This document shows, piece by piece, positions 41,301 to 61,278 of a stretch of 64,000 nt of DNA. Location of the stretch: assembly GCF_949987515.2 (NCBI RefSeq), contig NC_082683.1, positions 123,404,582-123,468,581 on the forward strand, in the 5' to 3' direction. The notes beneath the pieces are model-generated. The model did not search any database, was not told the DNA's origin, and saw only the letters and a program-made list of their open reading frames with translations. Within the stretch, counting starts at the first letter, position 1. Every line of letters begins with the position of its first letter. Source of the stretch: Delphinus delphis (Eukaryota > Chordata > Mammalia > Artiodactyla > Delphinidae). The position numbers and the translations under genes are program-made.

Positions 41301-44300
41301 TTTTCACTTCTGACCTCTAGGTGGCAACCACGCCAAGCCTTGTGACAAGCAGCGCAGCAACTACCCTCACAGTCAATCCAGTCCTTCCTTTAACCAGTGC
41401 TGCGGTAACTAATCTCTCTGTTACAGGTAAGCAGCAGCCAGGCGGTGCAGCTGTTAGGCAAATGATAGGCCCATGCTAAGTTTCTATGAGAATCTGCCAT
41501 TAAGTTGTAAATTAAGGTTTTAACTAAAAATATGTATTGCTTTTTTTAAGAAAGTTATATATGAAAACCTGAACTCTAAAAAGAAATCAGGCATAATACA
41601 TTTTTCCAGAAAGAATACTTTCACATAAAGATTTTATCTTTTTTCTTTCCCACATTAGTCTGTCTTCTACGTTGCTTCCTGAGTTACTTTTTTTTTTTTT
41701 TTTTGGCCGCACTGCATGGCATGCAGGATCTTAGTTCTCCATCCAGGGATCGAACTCACACCCCCTGCAGTAGAAGCATGGAGTCTTAACCACTGGATCA
41801 CCAGGGAAGTCCCAGAGTTACTTTTTTTCAATTAACTCCTCCTCTCCTTAAAAACATTTAATAGCTGCAGGTTTTTGCAATCAGGAAAACGTCCAAATGT
41901 ATCATGAATTCATAGACTGTATCCAGCCTGGACCTTATCTTTCACTAGTCTTTTCTCCATCCCATCCTCAACACAAAAGAGGATTCCTACTACCTTTGTA
42001 AACATGCCCATAGCGTAAAATGTTGTCCATCCCAGCCTCCACTTCTTTCTGTTAGTGATGAAACTACTCCAGCTTAGATATCAATTCTTCCTGGGTATAC
42101 TCTTCAGCTTCTTCAGGAAACTATTTGTTTCTACCTGCCTATATTATAAACAATTATATTTTATACTTCTCTCTTTTCCAGTAGACCTTGTACTTCTCAA
42201 AAGATCTGAATATTCCTTTTGAAATATCAGTGCTTGGCACATTCACAATAAAATGAATAAATAAATGTTTTCCCTTTACGTGGCACATTTTCCAGATACA
42301 TCTAAAATAAATTAGTGTTGTCATCAGAAGTTATCTAGTGATACATAAAGCAGAAGACATTCTGTAATTATTCACCAGGTTGATATATGCTAGTAAATCA
42401 TTGGACAGATTTTTGATCTTTCATATTCAAGCTTAAATTTAACCTAGAGTTGGGGAATTTGGTTTTTTTCACTCATATTTTAAGTGACCTAACCATGATA
42501 TAAAAATTGAATAAATGGCTTTATGTAGTTACTAAATTTCTAAGTCATTAGAAATTTTCATAATATTGTTTGTTTATTCAGAACAGTACTTTTGACCTCT
42601 TTTGGGTCTTTGACCTCTTTGAAACTTTGGTGACAGCTATAAACTTTTCCCCTCACAAAGTAGACATACCCACAATTTTTAGTAAGATTACAAGGAGGTT
42701 TATAAATCACAAACCTCATCAGTCCCCACCTTACCAAGCCTTGCCATTTCTGGATGCCTTAGAGGCAAATTAAAAACCTCTGTTCAAGAGTGTATAGTAT
42801 TCAGCACCTCAGCTTAAAAAGCAAACTGTTGGTGATCGGTTGCCGCTGTGTTGGGCACCAGGAACATGAAATTCCTGTCTTTGAGGAACTTACTGTCTAC
42901 CCTGACTGCCACTGGCTGGTAAATTGTGTACTTTACCTTCCAAACAAATCATAAGTCATATTACATTAGGTTTAAAGATACCCATCTTTTGCCAAAAAAA
43001 AATTCCTAATGGTTCAGGCATTAAGAGCAATAGCTTTGCAGATTTCTTAAAAAATGGCACAAATCTGAGGCAGAAGGTAATTTTAAGAAGATATACATGC
43101 TCAAAACTAGCTAAAATTTTTTTTATTTTTTGGTGATCTTAACTGCCTAGTCAGATTTTCTTAAACTCAATTACTTGGCCCATTTATTTAGATTTAATTA
43201 TGACAGTTTTCTGAAATGTTAGTAACTTTTGGAATGAAATTTTTCTTTAATCATTAAAATATTTAACATAGGAAATTCAAATAGGAAAGACACAATCACC
43301 GTGAGTACTATTTTTATTTTGTCTTTATATCTGTTTTTATATGTACATAGATGTACAATTCTAATAGTATTTATACTGTATCCTTTATTTTTAGCTTAAC
43401 ATCTAATAATAAGTATCTTCCTCTGTTATTATAGTTTTTACTTTTCTACTCTTGCCCTTATATCAAATGGTTGTACTGTAATTTCATAACCATTTCCATA
43501 TGTTACCATCATGGTTAAGTTCAACCGAGGGTGACCAACTCTTCCAGTTTGAGCCCTGCAAATATTACATCCCAGGAAACCTCTCAATCTCTAAGCCACG
43601 TAACTGGTCTTGCTTGTTCGCTATTGTATTCCTCGTGTCCAGCACACTACGTAGAGTGTAAGATACCCAGTAATTATTAAATGAATGAAGTTTTCACTGT
43701 TATAAATAATGCTATAATGAACACCTTCGTACATATAGCTTTTTCTTAAATTTTTTATTTTAACATAATTTCAGACTTACAGAAAAGTTATAAGAATAGT
43801 TCAGAGAAATCCTAAATCTCTTCCTCACATTCTCCAAATATTAAAATCTTACTATGTTTGCTTTCTCCTTTTTCTCTTTGTGTTTCTGTATGTGATTTTT
43901 TTTCTGAACTGTTGTAAGAGCAAGTTACAGATAAGCCCTTTTCCCCTGAATACTTTACTGTCTATTTTTTAATAAACAAGAAATATAGGGGAAAAGGAAA
44001 AGTTCATCCTTACAGTTGAAAGCCAACTAATAAATGTAGAAGAAATGATGGAATTATATGAGTAATAACAGTTCCAGGCTATCTGTATCAATATGGACTC
44101 AGAAATCATTCTGTATTCAGTAGGTTAGAATCCTACTATCACTTTTTATTGTAGTATTCAGATTGTCCCAGATTTAGCCAATGGGAACTACTTCAAGGTG
44201 GCTCCTGTGCCCTTTTGACATGTCCCTAGCATTCTTTGAGTGCTTCCTTATTTTTTAGCACACGAGATGTTCAGCTTCATCTTGAAGTTTCTCTGCCTCT

Positions 44301-47300: not shown

Positions 47301-50300
47301 AAAAATAATCAGCCTTTATAATTGTAACAGACAAAGTCTAAGGTGGCCCTCCCCCACCATGGTGTCTACCTCCTAGTGTTCAAGCCTTTGTGTAATCCTT
47401 TCCCCTTGAGTGTGGGCTGAGCCTTTAGTTTGCTTCTCATCAATAAAATGTGGCAAAGGTGATAGGATGTCACTCCATGATTATATTACATTTTGTAAGA
47501 CTCCGTCTTGTTCCCAGACTTACTCTAGAGACCCTCCTCACCAGTTTGATGAAGTAAGAAATAAACAACCATGTTAGGAAGCTCACAAATCAGGGTACTG
47601 AGGATGACCTCTAGGCGCTGAGGGTGGCCTTCAGCCAACAGCCAAAAAGAAGCTGGGCACTTAGTCTAGAGCAGCAAGCAGATTCTGCCGAATGATTTCT
47701 GCCAGCAACCCAAGTGAGCCTGGCAACATATTCTTCCCCAGTCATGCTTCCAGACTGGAACTGTCTGGCTGACCCCTTGATTGTGGCCTTGCAGAGCACC
47801 AGCTAGGCTGTGCCTGCACACCTGACCCACAGAAACTGTGAGATAGTAAATGTGTGGGGTTTTTTTTTTCTTTTTATTTATTTTTTAAATAGATCTTTAT
47901 TGGAGTGTAATTGCTTCACAATACTGTGTTAGTTTCTGTTGTACAACAAAGTTGAATCAATTGTTTTACGCTGCTAAATTTGTAGTACTTTGTTAAATAG
48001 CGATAGAAAATGAGTACAATAATATTACATTTGTATAAATATCGTTCAGGGACAGCTCATATGATTAGGGTGAAAAATGTAATCTTATGACACTTAAACC
48101 TTGCTCCTTGAAAGAGAAGGTTAAAGAGTCAGTGTCAAATGGATTTTCTTTTCTTCCTCTTGTCAGCAGTTGCTGAAAATCATGCCTCATTTTAATTTTT
48201 TTCCTATTTGGACCATAAGTTTCTTATTATAGCCTCTTTTCCTCTGACATTTCTATGTTGCTTTTTTTTTTTTTCAGTTGACAGAAGTAGCATATTCTTT
48301 CACTCATATTATTTATGAAAGACATCCAGTATCTTGATCATACAGCTTATCTAATGCAATCTACTTTCTTCCTGAAGACTTTCTCCTTGGAATCCCTATA
48401 ATTGCTTATTTTAACTTCTTTTCACTGTGTTCCTGAGTTAGATCCAATATTTCTGAGAGCCCATGTCTCCCTCTACCTTTTTCTTTTTTTTTTTTTCCCT
48501 CTACCTTTGATTCCTTTTTGTTTTGCCTGGTGCACACTCTCAAGTAATTTTTTTCTTTATTTGGAAAGATTATGTGGGAGGGAAAATTTCCAAGTACATG
48601 CATATCTGAAAAGTATTTTGCCCTCACAGTATTTGTAGTTTGTACAGTAATAGAATTTTAGGTACAAAATTACTTTTCCTTTGAACTTAGAAGGTATTGC
48701 TCTGTTGTATTTTAGCATCCAGTGTTGCCAATGAAAAGTCTGATTTCAGTCTAACTCCGATTTGTTGATCATTTGTTTTTCCCTCTATCAACTTTAAGGA
48801 TCTTGTTATCCTTTGAGTTCTGAAATTTCACTAGAAGGTATCAAGGCATGGGCCTTTTAAATTTCTCCTCCTTGGCCTTCAGTGGGCGTTTTCAATTTGA
48901 ATTAATGTCTTTCTTTAACTCTGGTAATTTGTCTTTCTTCCTTATTTCTGGAACATATTTTAAACAGACTTTAAACTCTCTAAATTGGCCCTATATATCT
49001 CTAACTTTTCTCTTGTGTTTTTCATTTTTTAACTTTTTATACTTCATTCTTGGAAATATATCCTGAATTTTATCTAACTGTTCCTGTGTTCTCATTTTTT
49101 ATTGTTGTCATTTGTATGTTTTTCCAAAATCATATTTTTAATTTCTAAGAATGTTTCTTTGTTCTGATTCCACCTTTTTATAGCAATCTATTTTTAATTT
49201 GTAGATACAGTACAAATTAGAATTTTATTTAAGTTGCTTCTTCTGGCCTCAATTCTGCTTATTTATTTTGTTCCATTTCTTTTGTGCTGTGGATTTTTTC
49301 ATTGTCTGTTAATTTTTGATTATTTAGTCATACCGATGAATGCAAGGCCTTAGTACTTAATATCAGTAGCTTGTAAGATTTTTTCTGCCCTTGTGTAGCT
49401 TCTGTTACTCAGCATCCTTTCCCCTGATTGGAAGGGAGCTATGAGCTGTGAATGTGGGGAGAGAACTGCCAGACTTTGCTCAGGGCCTGTGGGTGGAAAG
49501 CAGACAGGCAGACCAGGCTCTACCCTACACCTTCCTCAAATGAGAGGGATGCCAGCACTTACACTAAAGTTCGTAACCTTCCATACTCAGATTTTTATTT
49601 TCTTTGAAGAGTAGTAGGTGACATTAGTTAATGCTTAGGTGATAAGTCTGGTGGGGGGAGGAAAAGTCCCACTGACAGAGCTGGTGTGTGAAGTCTGGTC
49701 ACCCTGTTCTCTGCCCTTGTTTCCTACTCCTGCCTCAGTACTGACAACGCGGAGCTTGAAATCCCCTCAGGGCTCCACTGGGGTAAATAATTCCCACCTC
49801 TATCGTAGTCTTCTACTGTGCCCTTCTGGACTATGGTTGGTTTCTCTACCACCCAATTTTAACCTCTTTCTCATTTCTGCAAATATATCAAATTCTCAAG
49901 TTCTCTGAAATCTCACTCCCAGAGCTGTCACTCCCTTTTTTATTACTTTACCATCTTTTGGGATAGCATTTTAGAAATGAAGGAATAAACATACCCTTAG
50001 TCTGCCCTCCTCTAAGAGAAATGTTGTGTGATTGCCATGGTCCTTTTTATTTTCCCAGAGTATCTGTCATAGTGCTTGGGACATAATAGGTCCTTGGTAA
50101 AACTTTTCCCTTTTTTAATTTTTTTAAATCTTTTTTTATTATAGCATAGTTGATTTACAACGTTGTGCCAATCTGCTGTACAGCAAAGTGACTCAGTTAT
50201 ACACATAGAGACATGCTTTTTTTTTTTTTTTTTTTTTTTGCGGTACGCGGGCCTCTCACTGTTGTGGCCTCTCCCGTTGTGGAGCACAGGCCCCGGACGC

Positions 50301-53300
50301 GCAGGCCCAGTGACCATGGCTCACGGGCCCAGCCGCTCCATGGCATGTGGGAATCTTCCCGGACCGGGGCACGAACCCGTGTCCCCTGCATCGGCAGGTG
50401 GACTCTCAACCACTGCGCCACCAGGGAAGCCCGAGACATGCTTTTTTTATATTCTTTTTCATTATGGTTTATCACAGGATATTCAGTATAGTTCCCTGTG
50501 CTCTACATTAGGACCTTGTTGTTTATCCATCCTAAATGTAATAGTTTGCATCTACCAACCCCAAACTCCCAGTCTATCCCTCTCCCTCCCCCCTCCCCCT
50601 CAGCAACCACAAGTCTGTTCTCTGTGTCTATGAGTCAGTTTCTGTTCTGTAGATAGGTTCATTTGTGCCAAATTTTAGATTCCACATGTAAGTGATATCA
50701 TATGGTATTTGTCTTTCTCTTTCTGACTTACTTCACTTAGTATGGTAATTTCTGGTTACATCTATGTTGCTGCACATGGCGTTATTTCATTCTTTTTTAT
50801 GGCTGAGTAGTATTCTATTGTGTATATGTACCACATCTTCTTTATCCAGTAATCTGTCAATGGACATTTAGGTTGTTTCCATGTTTTAGCTATTGTGAAC
50901 AGTGCTGCTATCTATGAACACAGGGGTGCATGTATCTTTTTTTTTTTTTTTTTGGCTGCGTTGGATCCTTGTTGCTGCACGCGGGCTCTCTAGTTGCAGT
51001 GAGCAGGGGCCACTCCTCATTGCGGTGCGCAGGCTTCTCATTGCGGTGGCCTCTCTTGTTGTGGATCATGGGCTCTAGGTGTGCGGGCCTCAAGTTGTGG
51101 AACGCGGGCTCAGTAGTTGTGGCTCATGGGCTCTAGAGCGCAGGCTCAGCAGCCATGGTGCACAGGCTTAGTTGCTTCGCGGCATGCAGGATCCTCCCCG
51201 ACCTGGGCTCGAACCCATGTCCCCGCATTGGCAGGCAGACTCCCAACCACTGCGCCACCAGGGAAGCCTATGTATCTTTTTGAATTATAGTTTTCTCTAG
51301 GTATATTCCCAGGAGTGGATTGCTGGATCATATGGTATTTTAGTTTTCTGAGGAACCTCCATACTGTTTTCCATAGTGGCTGTACCTGGTAAACTTTTCT
51401 ACGATAGAAAATGAATGATCAAGACTGTACTGCTCCAGAAAGATATGTATTCTTCTGTGTCTTAAGAACTTGCAAAAATTCCACAGCCTTTAATAATCTC
51501 AACTAGGGCTTCCCTGGTGACGCAGTGGTTGAGAGTCCGCCTGCCAGTGCAGGGGACGCGGGTTCGTGCCCTGGTCCGAGAGGATCCCACATGCCGTGGA
51601 GCGGCTGGGCCCGTGAGCCATGGCCACTGAGCCTGCGCGTCCGGAGCCTGTGCTCCGCAACGGGAGAGGCCACGACAGTGAGATGCCCGCGTACCGCAAA
51701 AAAAAAAAAAAAAAAACCTCAACTAAACAAGCTCTGCCTCCAGTTCTTTTTCCAAAGTAGTGTTTCACAATGAACTGTATGCAATCCCATAACCATTATC
51801 AGTCTCTCCCCATTCACTTCTCCCCTTACTTACTCTGTCTCTATGAATCTACCTGTCTCAGACATTTCATATAAATGGAATCATGTAATATATGACCCTC
51901 TGTGTCTGGCTTCTTACATTTAGCATATTTCCAAGGTTTATCCATGTTGCAGAGTATATTGGAACTTCATTCCTTTTAATAGTTGAGTGATATTTCATTC
52001 CATGGATATACCGTACTTTGTTTATTATTCCGGAGTTGATGGACATTTGAGTTGCTTCCAGTTTGGGGCCATTTTGAATACTGTTGCTATGAGTATGCAT
52101 GTATCAATACAAGTTTGTTTGTTTTTTTGTATCTTTATTGGAGTATAATTGCTTTACAGTGTTGTGTTAGTTTCTGCTGTACAACAAAGTGAATCAGCTG
52201 TATGTATACATATATCCCCATATCCCCTCCCTCTGGAGCCTCCCTCCCACCCTCCCTATCCCACCCTCTAGGTCATCACAAAGCTCAATACAAGTTTTTA
52301 TGTGGTTATTTGTTTTCAGTTCTCTTGGGTATATATTTAAGAATGGAATTGCTACCTCATGCAGCATTCTGGAATATTATGAACAAGTTTTTGCCCCCCA
52401 AAATTAGGCAACTTAGGTGAAATGGACAAATTCTGAGACTCAAATTACCAAAACTGACTCAGAAAGAAATAGAAAACCTTTAAAAGACCTAAAACAAGTA
52501 AAGTAAGTGAATCAAAAAGAAATGCCTGGACTCAGAGGGCTTTAGCAGTGAACTCTTAGCAGATATTTCACAAAGAAATAAGAATTAACCTTAGCAGTCT
52601 CTTCCAGAAGATAGAGGAGGAGGAACAACTCATTGTATGAAGTCAATATTACCTTGATTCTAAAGCCAGACAAAGTTATCACAAGAAAAAGATTATGAAC
52701 CCATATCCCTCATGAAAATGTACACAAAAATCCTCAACAAAATCTTAGCAAATCAAATCCAGCAACATATAAAAAAGATTATACATTATGACCAAGGGAT
52801 TATCCCAGGAATGTAAAGTTGATTTAATAACTGAACATAAATTAATGTAGTACACCATAGTAATAGAAGAAAGGACCAAAACCTCATGATCATCTCACTA
52901 GATATAGAAAAAGCATTTGACAAAATCCAACACCCATTCATGATAAAAACCTGGAATAGAAGGGGACTTCCTAACCTGATAAAGAGCATCTACTAAAAAG
53001 CCTCCAGGTAACAGCATACTAAATGGAGAAAGACTGAATGCTTTCCCCCCACTAAGATTGGGAATAAAGCAAGAATGTTTGCTCTAGCAGACTTCTAATT
53101 AGCATTGTAGTAGAGGTTATAGTCAACTTAATAATGGAAAAAAATTTTAAACATCCAGTTTGGAAGGGGAGAAGTTAAAACTGTCTTTGTTTTCATTATC
53201 CTATATGTATAAAATTCTCAAGGAATTCACACACCCAAAAGCCTACTAGAACTAGTAATGAATTCAGTGTTGTTGCAAGATACAAAATAAATATACTCTC

Positions 53301-56300
53301 TCAAACTCTCTAGAAAAATGAATGGAGAGATATTCCATTTGTAAATCATATATCTGATAAAGGAATTATATCTAGAACATATAAAGAATTCTTAAAATTC
53401 AATAGTAAGAATACAGGCAACTTAGTATTGTAAAGGGGCAAAAGATTTTAATATACATTATACCAAAGAAGATATAGGAATGACTAATAAGCACATGAAA
53501 AGATGTTCAACATTATTGCTCAGCAGAGTGCTGTCACTGTATAGCTACAGAGATGACTACTGCAGAATCTTGTTTTAATCATAAAGAAAAATCATTACAT
53601 TGTTCAGACAGACAGAAGCTTATACTATAAAATGTTGTACATTCATAGTAATTTTAAATTACCTTTATGCTCTAAGAAGCTGTCCTACATAGGAGCTTTG
53701 TAGGTTTTTCATGTGTAACATATTATAAATTTATCTTTTGAATATAATAAATGTTTTCATATAAAAAAAATAAAATCATAATGAGATACTACTTCATACT
53801 CAATAGAATAGCTATAATCAAGAAGACCAAAAATAATAAGTCTTGGCAAGGATGTGGAGAAACTGAAACCTTCATGCTTCGCTGGTGGGAATGTAAAATG
53901 ATACAGCCACTTTGGAAGACACTTCGGCATTGTCTTTAAACTTTACACATAAAATTACCATCCCACCCGACATTTCCCCCAAGAGAAATGAAAACATTTC
54001 CACAAAAACTTTTACACAAATTATCATAACAGCATTATTCATAATAATCAAAAACTGGAGAGACTTCCCTGGTGGTGCAGTGGTTAAGAATCCACCTGCC
54101 AATGCACGGGACACCGGTTCGAGCCCTGGTCCAGGAAGATCCCACATGCCGTGGAGCAACTAAGCCCGTGCGCCACAACTACTGAGCCTGTGCTCTAGAG
54201 CCCATGAGCCACAGCTACTGAGCCCGTGCACCACAACGGTACCAACGGTACCACATGTACTGAGCTACCGCAACTACTGAAGCCCACGCACCTAGAGCCT
54301 GTGCTCCACAATAAGAGAAGCCACTGCAATGAGAAGCCCGTGCACCGCAATGAAGAGTAGCCCCCGCTCGCCGCAACTAGAGAAAGCCTGAACAATGAAG
54401 ACCCAATACAGGCAAAAATTAATTATTTAATTAACTAATTAAAAAAAAAAAAACCACAAAACTGGAAACAAGCCATTGCCCATCAATTGATGAATGAATT
54501 AAACACCATGTGGTCTATCCATGTAGTGTAACACTTTTCAGCCGGAAGGAAGTATTGGTTCATGCTACAACATGGATAAACCTTGAAAGCAGTATGCTAA
54601 CTGAAGAAAGCTAGATGCAAAAGACTGCAAATTGTATGATTCCATTTATGTGACATGTCTGGGAAAGGTAAATCTACAGATACAAAAAGCAGGTGACTGG
54701 AGGCTGTAGGTGGGAACAGGTGTGACTGCAAATAGGCACAAGGGATCTTTTTTAGTCATACACTAGATTGGGGTGGTGGGTGTACCACTCTGTCAATATA
54801 TTAAAAATCATTGAATTTTACACTTAAATTGGGTGAATTTTATGGCATACAGATTGTTCCTCACTAAATCTATTTTTTAAAAAGGGTGAGGTGGGTGCTC
54901 ACTTTGGCAGCACATACACTAAAATTGGAACGATACAGAGAAAAGGATTGGCAGATACAAGCCAATGTAGGATAGATAAACAACAACAATTTACTGTCTA
55001 GCCCAGGGAACTATGTTCAATATCTTGTAATAAACTATAATGGAAAAGAATCTGGAAAAGAATATATATATATACACACACACATACAACTAAGTCACTT
55101 TGCTGTACACCTGAAACTAACACAGTACTGTAAATCAACTATACTTCAATAATTAAAAAAAAATTTTTTTCAATTAAAAAGGATGAGGTGGGAAACAGGA
55201 GGTTGTGCCACACACTATATTCTTGCACGTAACTTCCTACTAACCTTGTGAGGTGGTGATGGCGTCTAATTCTGTTGCTGAGGACGCGAAAGCTCAGGAG
55301 GCATCACTTCCCTGATCAAAGTTGCCCAAGTAATTAAGTTGCCAAGAATATAGATAAAAGATATATATTGATTAAGAGGTGATTCACTGGGAGAATTCAT
55401 TTGAAAATCCCATTATTATACTCTAGTGCTCATATGACTTTCATATTGAAGACACCTAGAATGTGGTTGGAGGATAACAACCAGAAAGAGCTACTTTGAA
55501 TGGTTTCTGGAGTCATCATCTCTTAGCCCAGGTTAAATTCACTGATGAAATTAATGGGATTTTCTTTGTATATATGCGGGAATTTAAGAAAGTGATACCG
55601 AATGGTCTGAAAATGGCAGTGGAGAGTGAAGAAAAGGCTACTTGAAGCCTTTGACCTCAAGTTCATTTCAGAAGTTTGAAAAGAAAGTAGTGCCCGTAAG
55701 TGAAATCAGGTTAGATAAGCTGAAAAATTGGTCAAGAAAAGATTGAAATTATATTGAAATTTACTAGCAGTAGAAGAGAAATGAGAGAAGATATATACCT
55801 TTCTATAGAACAGGGGGCAGGTCTTAGGAAAAGAGTGTCAAAGTGAAAAAGTATGTATGAATCTGCCAAACATATAGGACCCAACACAGCATCAATAGCT
55901 CAGTGATATAAATTGGTCTGATAGATTTAGAACTGAATAATGAAACTATGATTAATAATATCCACAAAGATGTAATTGTACTTTGGAACAGCAGCAGTCA
56001 AGAGGGAATCATCTTATTTATATTTTTGAGAGGGACAGAAAAAGGAGTAAATCCTCCCTTTTCACTTAACAGTAAGAAAGATATGTTTACCTGATTAATT
56101 CAGAGACCACATAACCCTTTTGTGTAGCATGATAGGAGGTGGGAAAAGTAGAGTCAGTACTGAAATAGATGGTGTCTAATTTTCTCCCAGCTCTGCAATA
56201 TGTGAAAGAAACATTTCCTTAACAGTTAAAATGAGAGATGAATTCTAGGTATTCTTAGTATAGACCAGAAGAAGGCTTCAAAATAGATTTTAAAAGAACA

Positions 56301-59300: not shown

Positions 59301-61278
59301 CTCTATATAATTTGAAGTTAAGTACATACAAATTTAAAACTTCCTGGTAAATTGGTCTTGTTGATATGAAGTGCCCTTGTTTATTTCTAGTAATGCTTTT
59401 GCTTTCAAGTCTACTGTATCTGTTATTATATAATTTCCTTTTAGTTTATATTTGCACAGTATATCTTTTCCAGTTCTTTTACTTTCAACCTTTTGTACCA
59501 TTATGTTTTGTTTTTTAATAAACTTTTAAAAATTAAAAAAAAAAGGCATCTGGACATATGCCTTTAGTTATTTTCGTACTGTTTCTGTACATGTTATTGA
59601 CACTTATTTGAGAAAAATGTGTAACTTTTAGTTTTTCTTGATTTCATTGCTTTGTTTTGATTTTTCTGTAGAGACTACTAAGGAGATTTCTGAATGAAAA
59701 TCCTTTCAGAAGCTTGGATTTTTTTGCTTGTACATTTCTTCCCCAGAGCAGTTGTGTTCTGTAGTTAGAGCTTCTGTGTTTTTTTAATTTTTAATAGGAA
59801 ATTGGAAATGGAAAGCTGTGTTCCCTGTTTGTTTTATGGTTACTTTATTGCTCTTGCCTCTTAAAGTAGGTTCATGGCTTTGGTTCTTAAAATGTTTGTT
59901 TTTGTGGTTAATTTCCCTAGAAACACTAAACTCGGTTAATAAAAAAGGACATGTTTAGAGGTTACTGGATGGTAAATTAATTATTCAGTTGATTCTAGAT
60001 TATGGTTGAATAAAGCAGCCATTCTTCCAAAAACATTTACAGAAGGTCACTTTCTAATATGATTCCCTTTTCAGGCACTACAGACACCACCTCCAACAAC
60101 ACCGCAGCCGTGATTTCCACAGCGCCTCCAGCTTCCTCAGCAGTCACTTCCCCTTCTCTGAGTCCCTCCCCCTCTGCCTCAGCCTCCACCTCTGAGGCAT
60201 CCAGTGCCAGTGAGACCAGCACAACACACACCACCTCCACTCCTTTGTCCTCTCCTCTTGGGACCAGCCAGGTGATGGTGACAGCATCAGGGTTGCAGAC
60301 AGCAGCAGCTGCTGCCCTCCAAGGAGCTGCACAGTTGCCAGCAAATGCCAGTCTTGCTGCCATGGCTGCGGCTGCAGGACTAAACCCAGGCCTGATGGCA
60401 CCCTCACAGTTTGCAGCTGGGTAAGGTGCTTTCTCATCTTGTTTACATCTGAGAAACAGCTAGGAGGTCATCCCTGGAGTAACCTATAGCGAATACTTTT
60501 TCATCACTATCTTAAGTGCAAAAAAAGACAAAAAACAAAAACAAAAAATCCTTTAAAGCCATAATCTCTTTGAAATGGGTTGCTCTATAGTAGTAGCACA
60601 AGGATTTTGATTATGGTTGGAATTAAGTTTCTTAACACTCTGGAAGGACAGTAGTCATACCTTTATTTCTAGATGAAGATACAGAACACCAGGCCACTGA
60701 TTATACCTGAGTGATGGGACCAGGAAGAAAGCCCAGGATTCCTGACTCTTTATTCTTATGCTTTCTCCATTAATCTCTGAACTGTCTGCTTTCTAATTCT
60801 CAAACATAAATAAGAGATACAGTCATAGGATTCCTAATTTTATATTACCATGAAACAAATAAGAATTACTTCGTAAATATATTCCTTTCTCTGGCATTTT
60901 TTCCCTTTTGTTTTGGAAAAAAGGAGAATGAAGTAATTCAAAGAGTCAAAATGACTGCAAGTTTTACATTCTGTGTGGACCATAACCTCGTTTTGCTTTG
61001 TACAAGTGAGCGTCAAAGAAAGCAGTAACTTGGAAGTACTAACCACACCATGTAAGAGTGTAAAGAGAGTAACATATTTCCATATACTTCCCCAGTTGTA
61101 TTTTCCTTTTTCTTATCCATTTGAGTATGTTGTCAAACTGACACAGGCATCTACATTGTAATAAAGTGACTGTTCTTTTGTACTTTCAGAGGTGCCTTAC
61201 TCAGTCTCAATCCAGGGACCCTGGGTGGTGCTCTCAGCCCAGCTCTGATGAGCAACAGTACACTGGCAACTATTCAAG
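17222..61278 (+). CDS. POU2F1: POU2F1 (Oct-1) gene, 13 internal coding exons, both ends outside window
   Basis: This is the octamer-binding transcription factor Oct-1, a nuclear protein that binds ATGCAAAT through a bipartite POU domain and controls histone H2B, snRNA and many other promoters. The exons encode, in order, a Gln-rich activation region, the POU-specific domain, a Ser-rich linker, the POU homeodomain ending in the recognition helix WFCNRR, and a Ser/Thr/Ala-rich C-terminal region. The 13 exons total 1869 bases (623 codons) against about 743 residues in the human protein as I recall it. The missing parts fit about 19 N-terminal and about 100 C-terminal residues. Phases join without a shift at all 12 junctions. 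POU2F2 and POU2F3 were considered, but the N- and C-terminal sequences match Oct-1 specifically. No start codon, promoter, stop codon or polyadenylation site of the gene is in the window. Confidence 0.97.
17323..19585 (+). other. Intron with few recognisable repeats
   Basis: This is a 2263-base phase 0 intron. It is mostly unique AT-rich sequence. A short (GAAT)n run after 'ttgttgaacaaatg' near 18250-18280 resembles the tail of an old MIR or L2 element. An old LINE-like stretch lies near 18430-18540. I see no extra exon. Confidence 0.6.
19586..19639 (+). CDS. POU2F1: POU2F1 coding exon: 18-codon microexon-like segment, about residues 54-71
   Basis: This exon has exactly 18 codons (54 bases) and reads [18 protein letters not shown]. 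Both borders fall between codons, so skipping it would keep the frame, and it is a natural candidate for a cassette exon. The acceptor is tacttaatag and the donor gtaagctg. Human Oct-1 carries this segment in the same place, from memory. Confidence 0.95.
20020..20140 (+). repeat. MIR SINE
   Basis: The stretch reads like a MIR core: 'gcactggaatgaaagacag', a tRNA-like 'ggtttgaattc', then 'tgccactaactagctgt' and 'caagtcacttaacctc'. This matches the plus-strand MIR consensus as I remember it. It is an ancient mammalian SINE with no obvious role here. Confidence 0.8.
20147..20292. mobile_element. Short non-autonomous DNA transposon (Tigger-like)
   Basis: The ends are imperfect inverted repeats: 'ggttggccct' at the left, and the reverse complement of the right end reads 'cagttgcccct'. 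The interior (gactgtgagggacttt, tggataccaa) resembles small MER elements of the Tigger/pogo group. TA lies at the left border, fitting a TA target. The family name is from memory and unsure. Confidence 0.6.
20690..21000. promoter_or_regulatory. Candidate intronic enhancer with a perfect octamer site
   Basis: This is a repeat-free block of about 300 bases, richer in recognisable factor sites than its surroundings. It holds ATGCAAAT at 20903-20910, near-octamers at 20913-20920 and around 20932, a CAGGTG E-box at about 20888-20893, and several TAATTA/TTAATTA homeodomain-type sites between 20815 and 20960. ATGCAAAT is the binding site of Oct-1, the product of this gene. That it is an enhancer is inference from site density and lack of repeats; conservation was not tested. 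Confidence 0.4.
21528..21647 (+). CDS. POU2F1: POU2F1 coding exon: Gln/Ser-rich segment, about residues 72-111
   Basis: This exon has 40 codons with both borders in phase 0. It starts [18 protein letters not shown] and ends [10 protein letters not shown]. The low-complexity Gln/Pro/Ser content is typical of the Oct-1 activation region. The acceptor follows a strong C-rich tract (ccccacctcag) and the donor is the consensus gtaagt. Confidence 0.96.
21705..21899 (+). mobile_element. CHR-type tRNA-derived SINE, plus strand
   Basis: The head reads 'gacttccctgacagtccagt' and the tail has 'aataaagactttaaaaaaat' followed by a run of A. The 12-base target duplication aactgccattgg occurs at 21693-21704 and 21900-21911, giving exact borders. 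The element sits close behind the exon ending at 21647. Confidence 0.9.
22285..22485 (+). repeat. MIR SINE
   Basis: It contains 'ctctctgtgcctcagtttt' and, near the end, 'cagtgcttggcatgtagtag' with 'caataaatg'. These are hallmarks of a plus-strand MIR. Confidence 0.8.
23090..23480. promoter_or_regulatory. Repeat-free intronic block with octamer, E-box and GATA-type sites
   Basis: Visible sites are ATTTGCAT (the octamer on the opposite strand) at 23177-23184, CACCTG near 23204, and GATA cores in 'gagataatg' and 'cttatcag'. No repeat family was recognised in the block. An open reading frame of 94 codons here looks fortuitous. A regulatory role is inference only. Confidence 0.3.
23811..23999 (+). 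CDS. POU2F1: POU2F1 coding exon: glutamine-rich activation segment, about residues 112-174
   Basis: This exon has 63 codons, phase 0 on both sides. It begins [20 protein letters not shown] and ends [11 protein letters not shown]. This is the heart of the Gln-rich activation region. A perfect hexamer run (CAGGCA, three units plus CAG) at 23850-23870 encodes the alternating Gln-Ala stretch. The acceptor is ttttgtttag and the donor gtgagtga. Confidence 0.97.
24000..25437 (+). other. Intron, repeat-poor, with a homeobox-type palindrome
   Basis: This is a 1438-base phase 0 intron with no recognised interspersed repeat. The sequence 24250-24430 looks gene-regulatory (see the palindrome at 24266). 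The remainder is AT-rich unique sequence. Confidence 0.55.
24266..24279. promoter_or_regulatory. Perfect palindrome TAATTAGCTAATTA
   Basis: This 14-base sequence equals its own reverse complement and carries two TAATTA cores, the classic site for paired-type and Antp-type homeodomains. It lies in a repeat-free part of the intron. Binding is inferred from the motif only. Confidence 0.4.
25438..25564 (+). CDS. POU2F1: POU2F1 coding exon: Gln/Leu-rich segment, about residues 175-217
   Basis: This exon has 42 codons plus one base. It starts [18 protein letters not shown] and ends ISQTPQGQQ with the first G of a Gly codon. The acceptor is taatttttttag and the donor gtgagcgc. It continues the activation region. 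Confidence 0.97.
25565..26677 (+). other. Intron, mostly unique sequence
   Basis: This is a 1113-base phase 1 intron. A run of 17 T at about 26350 is the only striking simple repeat. No recognised mobile element or regulatory motif was found. Confidence 0.5.
26678..26772 (+). CDS. POU2F1: POU2F1 coding exon: Gln-rich segment, about residues 217-248
   Basis: This exon is 95 bases: two bases that complete the split Gly, then 31 codons reading [16 protein letters not shown] up to SITLTSQ. The acceptor is gtgttttacag. The donor is gtcggttt, which lacks the usual purine at position +3, so the exon may be spliced inefficiently. An in-frame read-through beyond the donor would add non-Oct-1 residues and then stop. 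Confidence 0.95.
27280..27430 (+). repeat. Degenerate MIR-like SINE
   Basis: The order of motifs is MIR-like: 'tcctagctgtgactttga', 'catgtcatttcacctctctg' and 'cctctgtttcctcataggta'. It is diverged, so the borders are approximate. Confidence 0.6.
27560..29560 (+). mobile_element. Old L1, plus strand, ORF2 3' half and 3' UTR, inactive
   Basis: Sequence phrases of L1 ORF2 are readable in order: 'gatgtccactgttaccactt', 'gatgacatgattgtctatgt' (the RT box region), 'atgaaaagatgctcaaaatt' and 'gaaatgtacttctgatacat', ending with 'aaactgtacacttttaaatg'. Frames are broken throughout, so no product is expected. The divergence suggests an early mammalian L1M family. Confidence 0.8.
30340..31420 (+). mobile_element. 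Ancient LINE remnant (L1M or HAL1-like)
   Basis: The A-rich sense strand has weak L1 3'-half character ('caaaggctttatctataaca', 'aacagaactgtatgcacaag', 'gcagagtataaaattatgtt') and ends near 'tcatacctcaattaaataaa'. It is too diverged for a firm family name. Confidence 0.5.
32127..32303 (+). CDS. POU2F1: POU2F1 coding exon: start of POU-specific domain, about residues 249-306
   Basis: Two acceptors three bases apart are present (ctctagcag): exon start at 32127 adds a CAG codon (Gln), while start at 32130 gives the 58-codon form [14 protein letters not shown] that matches the Oct-1 sequence I know. The exon then reads [20 protein letters not shown] and ends RRIKLGFTQ, the first helix and a half of the POU-specific domain. 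The donor is consensus gtaaga. Phase 0 on both sides. Confidence 0.96.
32787..32811. repeat. (AC)n microsatellite
   Basis: This is an uninterrupted run of about 12 AC units inside the intron. Confidence 0.9.
33757..33781. repeat. (TC)n microsatellite
   Basis: This is a run of about 11 TC units in an otherwise unique stretch. Confidence 0.85.
35203..35345. mobile_element. Short hAT-like (Charlie group) DNA element
   Basis: Two inverted copies of a 'ccacatgtggct' core, near the two ends (about 35224 and 35321), flank an AT-rich centre with 'aatttaaatttaaataa'. This architecture matches a mammalian non-autonomous hAT element. A longer relative lies at 57059-57340. The exact family name was not assigned. 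Confidence 0.6.
36617..36758 (+). CDS. POU2F1: POU2F1 coding exon: rest of POU-specific domain, about residues 307-354
   Basis: This exon has 47 codons plus one base. It starts [20 protein letters not shown] and ends [11 protein letters not shown]. It encodes the DNA-reading helices of the POU-specific domain; the QTTISRFE segment makes base contacts with ATGC in the octamer, as established for Oct-1. A very long pyrimidine tract (about 36565-36610) precedes the acceptor ctctgcag. The donor is gtgggtga. Confidence 0.98.
36759..38307 (+). other. Intron with an L1 3' end
   Basis: This is a 1549-base phase 1 intron. A 5'-truncated L1 3' end occupies about 37070-37428. The rest is unique, with nothing further recognised. 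Confidence 0.55.
37070..37428 (+). mobile_element. L1 3' end, 5'-truncated, plus strand
   Basis: It reads the cetartiodactyl L1 3' UTR: 'gatatcacttatatgtggaa', 'ataagcaacaaggatctgct', 'tcactttgctgtatacgtga' and 'aatcaactatacttcaattt', followed by an A run. It is non-coding and inactive. Confidence 0.85.
38308..38453 (+). CDS. POU2F1: POU2F1 coding exon: linker and first part of POU homeodomain, about residues 354-402
   Basis: This exon has two bases completing Glu, then 48 codons. It starts [17 protein letters not shown], passes GMGIEGLN, then reads [20 protein letters not shown] and FLE. The Ser-rich linker joins the two DNA-binding subdomains; RRRKKR is the basic N-terminal arm of the homeodomain and its nuclear localisation signal. 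The GMGIEG part appears two residues longer than the human form I remember. The acceptor is cttcttacag and the donor gttagtga, a weaker site. Confidence 0.97.
38523..38744. mobile_element. hAT-type non-autonomous DNA transposon with 8-bp target duplication
   Basis: The element begins caggcgtccccaag and ends ttgggaaccactg, imperfect inverted ends with CAG/CTG tips. The 8-base duplication ccgtagac lies at 38515-38522 and 38745-38752, diagnostic of hAT transposition. The interior 'aggaaccgggccgcacagca' resembles an abundant mammalian MER element. A short (CA)n run lies near 38650-38669. It starts 69 bases after the homeodomain exon. Confidence 0.8.
38753..39713 (+). other. Remainder of intron, mostly unique, with a MIR
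   Basis: A MIR-like stretch (plus strand) spans about 39225-39400: 'tgctctgccacttatgaact', 'ggtcaagttacgtggtttcc'. The rest is unassigned. Confidence 0.55.
39714..39893 (+). CDS. POU2F1: POU2F1 coding exon: homeodomain helices 1-3 and start of C-terminal region, about residues 403-462
   Basis: This exon has 60 codons, phase 0 on both sides. It starts [20 protein letters not shown], contains the recognition helix [16 protein letters not shown] with the POU-class Cys followed by the invariant Asn, and ends [14 protein letters not shown]. The helix reads the AAAT half of the octamer. The acceptor is ccctcttcag and the donor gtaaggat. Confidence 0.98.
39894..41320 (+). other. Intron, AT-rich, no recognised element
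   Basis: This is a 1427-base phase 0 intron. It is AT-rich unique sequence in which I recognise no repeat family, exon or clear regulatory site. Confidence 0.5.
41321..41426 (+). CDS. POU2F1: POU2F1 coding exon: Thr/Ser/Val-rich C-terminal segment, about residues 463-498
   Basis: This exon has 35 codons plus one base. It reads [20 protein letters not shown] and ends AAVTNLSVT with the first G of a Gly codon. The acceptor is tgacctctag and the donor gtaagcag. It opens the C-terminal Ser/Thr-rich activation region. Confidence 0.96.
41695..41814 (-). mobile_element. Short CHR-type SINE, minus strand
   Basis: A poly-T run is followed by 'ggccgcactgcatggcatgc', 'agggatcgaactcacacccc' and 'ggatcaccagggaagtccc'. 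The 14-base duplication gagttacttttttt lies at about 41681-41694 and 41815-41828. Confidence 0.9.
41829..43240. other. Unassigned part of the large intron
   Basis: It is AT-rich unique-looking sequence. Near 42230-42265 'cagtgcttggcacattcaca' and 'aataaataaatg' look like the tail of an L2 or MIR. Nothing else was recognised. Confidence 0.45.
43240..45480 (-). mobile_element. Ancient LINE fragments, mostly minus strand
   Basis: 43290-43770 and 44900-45480 carry reverse-complement LINE phrases ('ctgttataaataatgctata', 'agaagtagaattgctgggtc', 'gaattgccttccaaaaagat', 'tcattcccactaacaataca'). 43740-44230 contains another old repeat with 'cagacttacagaaaagttat'. The copies are very diverged; the boundaries and the number of events are unsure. 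Confidence 0.55.
45612..46140 (+). mobile_element. Solitary LTR, MaLR/MLT1-like (old endogenous retroviral copy)
   Basis: It begins 'tttctgttggtgtgtaacaa', continues 'attaccacaaacttagtggc' and 'ccacagttctgtaggctgga', and ends with 'ctcaagagaaggggattaca'. This matches the layout of a mammalian MaLR (ERVL-related) LTR. No internal retroviral genes are attached and nothing in it can encode protein. Confidence 0.7.
46141..46854. other. Unassigned part of the large intron
   Basis: It is unique-looking sequence; I recognise nothing specific in it. Confidence 0.4.
46855..47215 (+). mobile_element. L1 3' end, plus strand
   Basis: It reads 'gcagaagtagagacacagac', 'ccaagggggaaggaaggggg', 'tagctgattcactttgttgt' and 'gcaactatactccaataaaa', with an A-rich tail. 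This is a truncated, moderately young L1. Confidence 0.88.
47310..48019 (+). mobile_element. MaLR/MLT1-like LTR split by an L1 3' end
   Basis: The body ends 'cacagaaactgtgagatagt' and 'aaatgtgtg', then resumes after 47961 with 'tacgctgctaaatttgtagt' and 'gatagaaaatgagtacaa', the normal end of such an LTR. 47855-47960 is an inserted minus-strand L1 3' end ('ctttattggagtgtaattgc', 'gtttctgttgtacaacaaag'). It is an old non-coding retroviral LTR. Confidence 0.65.
48020..50100. other. Unassigned AT-rich part of the large intron
   Basis: Parts (about 48660-49350) have the feel of an ancient minus-strand LINE, but I cannot assign a family. No exon or clear motif was found. Confidence 0.4.
50223..50432 (-). 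mobile_element. CHR-2 SINE, minus strand
   Basis: It has 'gcggtacgcgggcctctcac' to 'gcgccaccagggaagccc'. The exact 15-base duplication gagacatgctttttt lies at 50208-50222 and 50433-50447. Confidence 0.95.
50942..51269 (-). mobile_element. Long CHR-type SINE, minus strand
   Basis: It reads 'ggctgcgttggatccttgtt', repeated 'gtgcgggcctcaagttgtgg'-like units and 'gcgccaccagggaagcct'. The duplication atgtatcttttt lies at 50930-50941 and 51270-51281. Confidence 0.93.
51506..51714 (+). mobile_element. CHR-2 SINE, plus strand
   Basis: It starts 'gggcttccctggtgacgcag' and ends 'gcccgcgtaccgc' plus about 18 A. The duplication aa(t/c)ctcaacta lies at 51495-51505 and 51715-51725. Confidence 0.94.
51745..52400 (-). 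mobile_element. Old L1, minus strand, split by a younger L1 3' end
   Basis: It reads 'catttcatataaatggaatc', 'gagttgatggacatttgagt' and, after the interruption, 'cagttctcttgggtatatat'. It resembles the old L1 at 3590-4285. Confidence 0.75.
52117..52284 (-). mobile_element. Young L1 3' end, minus strand, nested
   Basis: It has 'atctttattggagtataatt', 'gctgtacaacaaagtgaatc' and the C-rich 'cctcccaccctccctatccc'. The exact 13-base duplication tcaatacaagttt lies at 52104-52116 and 52285-52297. Confidence 0.9.
53530..53768 (+). pseudogene. Retrocopy of an unidentified mRNA 3' end
   Basis: Inside the old L1 the sequence switches to about 230 bases of unrelated DNA that ends with AATAAA (53746-53751), a further 11 bases and then A8. 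L1 resumes directly after ('catcatgagat'-like context near 53775). A polyadenylation signal plus A tail in the middle of an L1 is what a 5'-truncated processed pseudogene looks like. No reading frame is present, so it is probably 3' UTR only. I do not recognise the parent gene, and clear target duplications were not found. Confidence 0.55.
54058..54459 (+). mobile_element. Long CHR-type SINE, plus strand
   Basis: It starts 'gacttccctggtggtgcagt', has 'gttcgagccctggtccagga' and repeated 'ccacaactactgagcctgtg' units, and ends in a poly-A run. Short flanking copies of aaaactgga (about 54050-54058 and 54460) fit a target duplication. A small internal tandem (aacggtacc twice) lies near 54236-54250. 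Confidence 0.88.
54895..54942 (+). pseudogene. U6 snRNA 5' fragment (first 48 nt), pseudogene
   Basis: It reads gtgctcactttggcagcac, then 'atacactaaaattggaacga' and 'tacagagaa'. That is the first 48 nucleotides of U6, the spliceosomal RNA, with three differences from human U6 as I know it. It stops just at the ACAGAGA box, so it lacks the U2-pairing and stem-loop region and cannot be functional. It is joined directly to an L1 3' end. Confidence 0.92.
54943..55175 (+). mobile_element. L1 3' end joined to the U6 fragment
   Basis: It contains 'gatagataaacaacaacaat', 'cagggaactatgttcaatat', 'tcactttgctgtacacctga' and 'aatcaactatacttcaataa', then an A/T-rich tail. The duplication aaaaagg(g/a)tgaggtggg at 54879-54895 and 55176-55192 encloses U6 and L1 together, so they integrated as one molecule. 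Confidence 0.9.
55193..56802. other. Unassigned part of the large intron
   Basis: It is unique-looking AT-rich sequence. I recognise no repeat, exon or convincing motif. Confidence 0.45.
56818..57008 (-). mobile_element. CHR-2 SINE, minus strand
   Basis: It has 'gcggtacgcgggcctctcac' to 'gcgccaccagggaagccc', with a small internal deletion compared with the other copies. The exact 15-base duplication gacttgatattcttt lies at 56803-56817 and 57009-57023. Confidence 0.95.
57059..57340. mobile_element. hAT-like (Charlie group) non-autonomous element
   Basis: One end reads 'gtgccatacaatatggtaag' and the other 'tttctgttggacaatattc', imperfect inverted ends. The interior has 'ctaatttcacctctttcttt' and 'ttacatatgtactgtatttc'. 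It is related to the shorter element at 35203-35345. Confidence 0.65.
57572..57694 (+). mobile_element. Short CHR-type SINE, plus strand
   Basis: It starts 'gggaattctctggtggtcca' and has 'gattcaatccctgattgggg'. The exact duplication aagaaaatgtt lies at 57561-57571 and 57695-57705. Confidence 0.92.
57784..59542 (+). mobile_element. L1 (5'-truncated) with probable 3' transduction, plus strand
   Basis: 57784-58700 is a 5'-truncated L1: the last part of ORF2 (frames at 57860-58135 and 58075-58422, broken) and a 3' UTR ending 'aagaacctgctgtataaaaa'. About 830 further bases follow, ending with AATAAA (59516-59521) and poly-A. The flanking duplication aaggcatctg lies at 57774-57783 and 59543-59552, outside the extra sequence. 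This is the structure of read-through past the L1 poly-A signal. The ORF2 part covers the same region as 7439-8011. Confidence 0.72.
60075..60420 (+). CDS. POU2F1: POU2F1 coding exon: Ser/Thr- and Ala-rich C-terminal region, about residues 498-613
   Basis: This is the longest exon here, 346 bases: two bases of a split Gly, 114 codons and two bases of the next Gly. It begins [15 protein letters not shown], runs through a Ser-rich tract ([13 protein letters not shown]), and ends with Ala-rich sequence ([16 protein letters not shown], then QFAAG). The acceptor is ccttttcag and the donor gtaaggtg. Antisense reading frames over it are shadows of the Ser/Ala-rich code. Confidence 0.97.
60421..61189 (+). 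other. Intron, unique
   Basis: This is a 769-base phase 2 intron. Apart from a short A-rich patch at about 60520-60550 I recognise no repeat. Confidence 0.55.
61190..61278 (+). CDS. POU2F1: POU2F1 coding exon: C-terminal segment, about residues 613-642
   Basis: This is the last exon in the window, 89 bases. One base completes a Gly, then 29 codons read [20 protein letters not shown] and SNSTLATIQ, and one base opens the next codon. The acceptor is gtactttcag and the donor gtcagtag. The final exon, with about 100 residues and the 3' UTR, is not present in 61279-64000. Confidence 0.96.

Follow-up and report, generated by a model that had tools for sequence, protein, structure and literature searches.

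The first 48 bases of U6 small nuclear RNA (snRNA) are joined to an L1 3' end in an intron of POU2F1, within a window (the whole analysed stretch of Delphinus delphis DNA) of 64,000 nucleotides. Did this pair arrive in one insertion, or in two that came to lie one inside the other, and how could a joint form inside U6? The best answer is a single L1-driven chimeric insertion, during which the L1 reverse transcriptase would have left the L1 RNA and continued on an internal part of U6. We put the probability of a single event at roughly 0.8, which is a judgement and not a computed figure.

Structure and position of the element

With a human Oct-1 protein as query, 13 exon-like stretches of POU2F1 were found on the + strand. 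The element lies in sense orientation in a large intron, between two coding exons, which agrees with its initial placement inside this gene. The features are:

41321..41428, + strand: POU2F1 coding exon upstream of the element (Oct-1 protein match)
54879..54895, + strand: 5' copy of the target-site duplication, AAAAAGGGTGAGGTGGG; its last G doubles as U6 base 1
54895..54942, + strand: U6 snRNA bases 1-48, 45/48 identical, ending in ...ACAGAGAA (BLAST, Rfam)
54941..54948, + strand: AAAAGGAT, eight bases of the 3' duplication from its second A
54943..54944, + strand: junction bases AA, a clean match to neither U6 (GA) nor L1
54945..55151, + strand: 5'-truncated L1 3' end (own-genome L1 relatives)
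54946..54953, + strand: L1 side of the joint, GATTGGCA; U6 49-56 and 4/18 L1 relatives read GATTAGCA
55152..55175, + strand: A-rich L1 tail, oddly with a T run and CAATT past the A run
55176..55192, + strand: 3' copy of the target-site duplication, AAAAAGGATGAGGTGGG
60071..60421, + strand: POU2F1 coding exon downstream of the element (Oct-1 protein match)

The U6 part was identified by BLAST with a human U6 sequence (54895-54942, 45/48 identical, E 2e-14), and by the Rfam model RF00026 (54895-54944, 34.8 bits, E 7e-7, 801 bases searched). The Rfam score stays below the 44-bit gathering score because the U6 is partial, covering 48 of 105 positions, and a scan of the whole window with Rfam gave nothing reaching the gathering threshold. 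U6 differs from the query by G7A, C11T and T23C. The first two are both in CpG, so that two of the three changes represent CpG decay.

U6 and L1 lie head to tail, in one orientation, and are enclosed by one duplication. Its two copies agree at 16/17 positions, or 18/19 if the preceding TT is counted, and the insertion site, TTTTTT/AAAAAGG, resembles that of the L1 endonuclease. In the genome-wide survey of U6 copies, duplications of at least 12 bases were found at 48/99 real loci (window locus included) versus 2/297 swapped-flank trials. The initial annotation had described a U6 that is not full length but cut after its first 48 nt, an L1 3' end in the same orientation and a 17-base duplication with one mismatch, and all of these were confirmed.

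The target site is presumably the A-rich end of an older repeat at about 54400-54877, which looks to us like an old L1 3' end. Stretches related to this repeat were also seen at 4047-3800 and 51952-51836. Elsewhere in the same intron, at about 50211-50441, a SINE has inserted into the A-rich part of a different L1 3' end (minus strand). It has the duplication AAAAAAAGCATGTCTC, and ten more pieces of the window match it.

The L1 tail at 55152-55175, AATTAAAAAAAAATTTTTTTCAATTA, forms an inverted repeat with imperfections, and in this differs from the A-rich tails that most relatives have. Perhaps it reflects a short 3' transduction, or decay of the tail. The RNA fold of the A-rich tail was not significant (z -0.94). 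The element is probably a dead retrocopy, for which no function is expected.

Where L1 begins

The L1 part was compared with its own genome (G000, 2.66 Gb). Among the 40 of 4643 candidates that were scored, 39 other places match, one of them with two pieces, all in the L1 part, and no place but the locus itself aligns along its full length. Within the same 40 scored candidates, 11 of the 39 places begin at query positions 66-73; in eight, the start is precisely position 67, equivalent to window position 54945. A scan of IMG/VR for stray mammalian L1 gave 0 matches.

We fetched 20 of the 39 L1 relatives. Eighteen span the joint; L015 and L025 do not, and were excluded. Immediately before GG, 14 of the spanning relatives read TG, three TA, one CA and none AA, and the bases 54943-54944 are therefore not L1. 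L1 had initially been drawn from 54943 to 55175. The end holds, but the start moves to 54945. The AA possibly represents U6 49-50 with the change G49A, or is untemplated.

Divergence does not separate the ages of the two parts. U6 differs at 3/48 positions, and L1 at 22/186 from the majority of 20 relatives (17 sites without the five changes common to at least five other copies). These values agree within error (Fisher p 0.43), and dating by divergence was therefore rejected. The insertion is probably old and may predate Cetacea.

Two clues at the joint

One order of events, with L1 first and U6 later, was rejected, since the letters in front of U6 are the original flank's 17-mer and do not derive from L1.

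The opposite order leaves a less simple picture. A tailless U6 could have inserted first, primed at an internal purine box by the nicked T-rich strand and flanked by the 17-bp duplication, and a 5'-truncated L1 could later have entered the downstream duplication copy with an 8-bp duplication of its own, AAAAGGAT. The predecessor would then have been U6 1-46/48 followed directly by AAAAGGATGAGGTGGG, without L1. A single outer duplication is insufficient evidence for one event, because an L1 inserted into the 3' duplication of an older U6 leaves an identical outer repeat. We consider this nested history distinctly unlikely, yet it makes good use of the junction letters. AAAAGGAT, at 54941-54948 and again at 55177-55184, brackets L1 and accounts for all four A's, and the middle and 3' duplication copies agree where the 5' copy differs. 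In the initial annotation, a separate duplication for U6 was named as evidence against one event. The outer 17-mer encloses both parts, but AAAAGGAT could be the 8-bp duplication of L1.

Repeats as short as this one also arise by chance, as indicated by two unrelated exact 8-nt repeats that a search at 8 nt found within the element. At least eight duplication bases are expected at a random joint in 0.11% of cases with a random U6 end and window DNA, in 0.26% with the U6 end fixed at 48 and window DNA, and in 1.1% with L1 positions. Furthermore, only 8 of the 17 duplication bases follow U6 before L1 sets in, which is not the layout of tailless (Group III) copies. The L1 nick would have been CAGAG/AAAA instead of TT/AAAA.

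The second clue is a word common to both parents. The eight bases GATTAGCA stand at the joint in 4/18 spanning L1 relatives (L009, L011, L014 and L019) as well as in U6, where we take them to adjoin the ACAGAGA box. The chance of a shared 8-base word at a random joint is 0.2-0.8% (with relative L009 as the L1 side), and under the nested history this word would be a coincidence. For a single insertion it offers a guide. The L1 family's GATTAGCA, about 210 nt from the 3' end, may have paired, with slippage, to let the enzyme enter U6. This pairing-guided switch is a tentative proposal, and on balance a doubtful one. The full 8-mer is present in just those four relatives, and the window copy itself reads GATTGGCA. 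The element is also three bases (AAG) longer than the perfect shared-word product which, together with GATTGGCA, means that the switch was not clean. In its own genome, the shared-word joint pattern matched only the window locus, and the perfect-homology product, with at most three mismatches, occurred at 3 places versus 154 and 158 in the reversed control. The shared word marks no visible hotspot, and old diverged joints could escape both patterns. If the pairing-guided reading is true, internal U6/L1 switches would constitute a small but regular class, determined by whatever homology the local L1 family happens to have with U6.

A third reading of the junction letters keeps a single insertion and adds a short stretch templated by the target. 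The end of the L1 cDNA, ATCC, would pair with the target GGAT, copy AAAA, and then proceed to the A-rich box of U6. This accounts for both the common GGAT and the junction AAAA at the price of two switches, and we regard it as highly improbable.

Altogether, the repeat of the duplication (AAAAGGAT) and the shared word (GATTAGCA) have about the same weight. Base rates must therefore decide between the histories.

U6 copies across the genome

Other U6 copies were collected with two exact seeds, a procedure which misses diverged copies. The first seed (U6 28-48) hit 99 places, and the 98 others were fetched with flanks. The second (U6 19-40) hit 97 places, of which 67 were already in the first set and the other 30 were fetched. 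Both seeds can reveal cuts at U6 48-56, but only the second those at 40-47.

In the first set, U6 is at least 100 nt long in 93/98 copies, the other five end at 59-96, and 0/98 end at 44-56. In the second set, 27/30 reach at least 100 and three end at 70-94. None of the 128 other copies from both exact-seed sets ends at 40-56, where the nested history would place the cut of a tailless U6. U6 runs directly into L1-like sequence in 54/98 copies of the first set, and in 52 of these 54 it is at least 100 nt long. A flank was labeled L1-like when it resembled known L1 ends or a minimum of two other downstream flanks, and some other repeats may be among those so labeled. The label was applied to the first set; L151 and L157 were assigned to L1 by visual inspection of their sequence.

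The initial annotation had proposed a search for other U6-L1 junctions. In this genome, 4/128 other copies have a 3'-cut U6 joined to L1, three of them with a candidate outer duplication. These four, and three further 3'-cut copies, are:

L104: U6 1-59 and L1; no duplication found
L151: U6 1-83 and L1 of the window element's L1 family; duplication 9/10
L038: U6 to about 90-94 and L1; 14-nt duplication, 13/14
L157: U6 1-94 and L1; repeat 12/13 by local alignment, none by the duplication-survey rule
L091: looks tailless, U6 end at 96; repeat 14/16 by local alignment
L144: looks tailless, U6 end at 70; repeat 13/15 by local alignment
L059: U6 to 90, then an A-rich tail; 17-nt duplication

The repeat of L151 is weak alone, since repeats of at least 10 occur in 30/297 swapped trials, yet it lies right at the L1 end. 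This copy (G000 C15:66498560-66499581) is joined near the L1 position used by the window element, with AAATT in common near the joint. In L038, L074 and L157, the U6 match stops at or near 94, and two of the three continue into L1, although the end of L038 may be at about 90. L074, with a match to 94, was placed in neither the L1-joined nor the tailless group. These three copies possibly result from cuts that recur close to the 3' end of U6. Another pair, L136 and L137 (G000 C6:20235971-20240171), lies in opposite orientation about 3.7 kb apart, with the same 5' flank and a near-identical 3' flank. Judged by these flanks, the pair is best read as an older U6/L1-like chimera that was duplicated in inverted orientation.

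In the surveyed genome, where just two copies (L091 and L144) look tailless, tailless U6 is no commoner than internal U6/L1 joints.

One insertion or two

The nested history draws on known processes. Small nuclear RNA copies cut at the 3' end and primed at purine-rich segments are a class described in PMC4476161 and PMC5322556, and PMC2912911 describes cases of 5'-truncated L1 with duplications of at most 9 bp. The same intron also provides the SINE inside the A-rich stretch of another L1 (about 50211-50441). On the other side, Doucet 2015 (PMC4476161) lists 0/31 3'-truncated U6 copies for dolphin.

A single event is favored, at the probability given above, because tailless U6 copies do not outnumber internal U6/L1 joints in this genome, and because the nested route would additionally require an L1 to have landed at one given place, with a duplication of 8 bp and at an unfavorable nick site. 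Some observations speak against one event. AAAAGGAT repeats the duplication at the joint, the AA fits neither parent, and a U6 cut at 48 is atypical beside the 52/54 copies joined to L1-like sequence in which U6 has at least 100 nt. The like events have weaknesses of their own, as L104 is without a duplication and that of L151 is weak.

For the single insertion, we propose the following course. The endonuclease would have nicked the A-rich end of the older repeat, and the nicked strand would have primed on the L1 A-tail (target-primed). Reverse transcription would have proceeded about 210 nt into the L1 RNA, until the enzyme jumped to an internal position of a U6 RNA, near U6 48-50, and followed this RNA to its 5' end. 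The move was probably eased by a short word common to L1 RNA and U6 (GATT, up to GATTAGCA), and two or three extra bases would have remained at the joint. A second-strand nick 17 bp away would have produced the duplication, and the empty site before the insertion would have been a single AAAAAGGRTGAGGTGGG.

The chimera could also have formed at the RNA level. A 5' fragment cut from U6 would have been ligated (e.g., by RtcB, which has been proposed for full-length U6/L1) or otherwise joined to L1 RNA, and the product copied in one pass. This is a sub-case of the single event, and its probability is contained in that of the latter; taken by itself we think it unlikely. Ligation is a published route for U6/L1 (Moldovan 2019, via Law and Burns, PMC13174262), needs no pairing at the joint and allows extra bases. 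However, it requires a U6 cut near base 48, and leaves the word in common at the joint to chance. The initial annotation had proposed a single chimeric integration by template switching. One event is still the best reading, but the switch itself is inferred, and a fusion at the RNA level looks alike.

The full-length U6 of most chimeras fits a joint at the free U6 3' end, by either end-to-end switching or ligation. Joints inside U6, as in the window locus and the four candidates from one genome, are impossible that way from an intact U6. They call for either switching onto the inside of the RNA, or fragments of U6. The window locus also demonstrates that one outer duplication alone is not enough to exclude a nested insertion.

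Comparison with known U6/L1 chimeras

U6/L1 chimeras had initially been presented as a primate matter. This does not hold, as Doucet 2015 (PMC4476161) tabulates U6 joined to a retrotransposon in 38/39 placental genomes. For dolphin, this table gives 10 retrotransposon-joined and 0 3'-truncated among 31 U6 copies analysed, and it was limited to copies with 97.5% or more identity to U6, a threshold that the window locus would not reach. The same paper states that internal initiation was never observed for U6/L1. In humans, Law and Burns 2026 (PMC13174262) report 180 U6/L1 loci and describe U6/L1 as the commonest L1 chimeras, with 70.9% of 253 curated chimeras. U6 is there 'consistently' full length in one place, and 'most' in a figure legend. 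We found no internal U6/L1 joints in the literature searched, and the supplementary table of Law and Burns may contain some.

The window element shares with the U6/L1 chimeras (Group IV, Doucet 2015) an intact U6 5' end followed by a 5'-truncated L1 in the same orientation, as well as one outer duplication at an L1-endonuclease-like site. It differs in its U6, which stops at 48, whereas the published ones are described as full length. Chimeras of 3'-truncated U5 or U3 with L1, described by Doucet 2015 and by Law and Burns 2026, are similar in that their joint also falls within a small nuclear or nucleolar RNA, but the RNA is another one, and the U5 cases are antisense in 80% (Law and Burns 2026, PMC13174262). 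With the tailless snRNA retropseudogenes (Group III), the element has in common a U6 cut in a purine-rich segment and a T-rich nick. In contrast to them, its U6 is followed by L1 and an A-rich tail, and not directly by the whole duplication. The element is of the U6/L1 kind already known, in a host that is not news, and its internal U6 cut is a rare variant of that kind.
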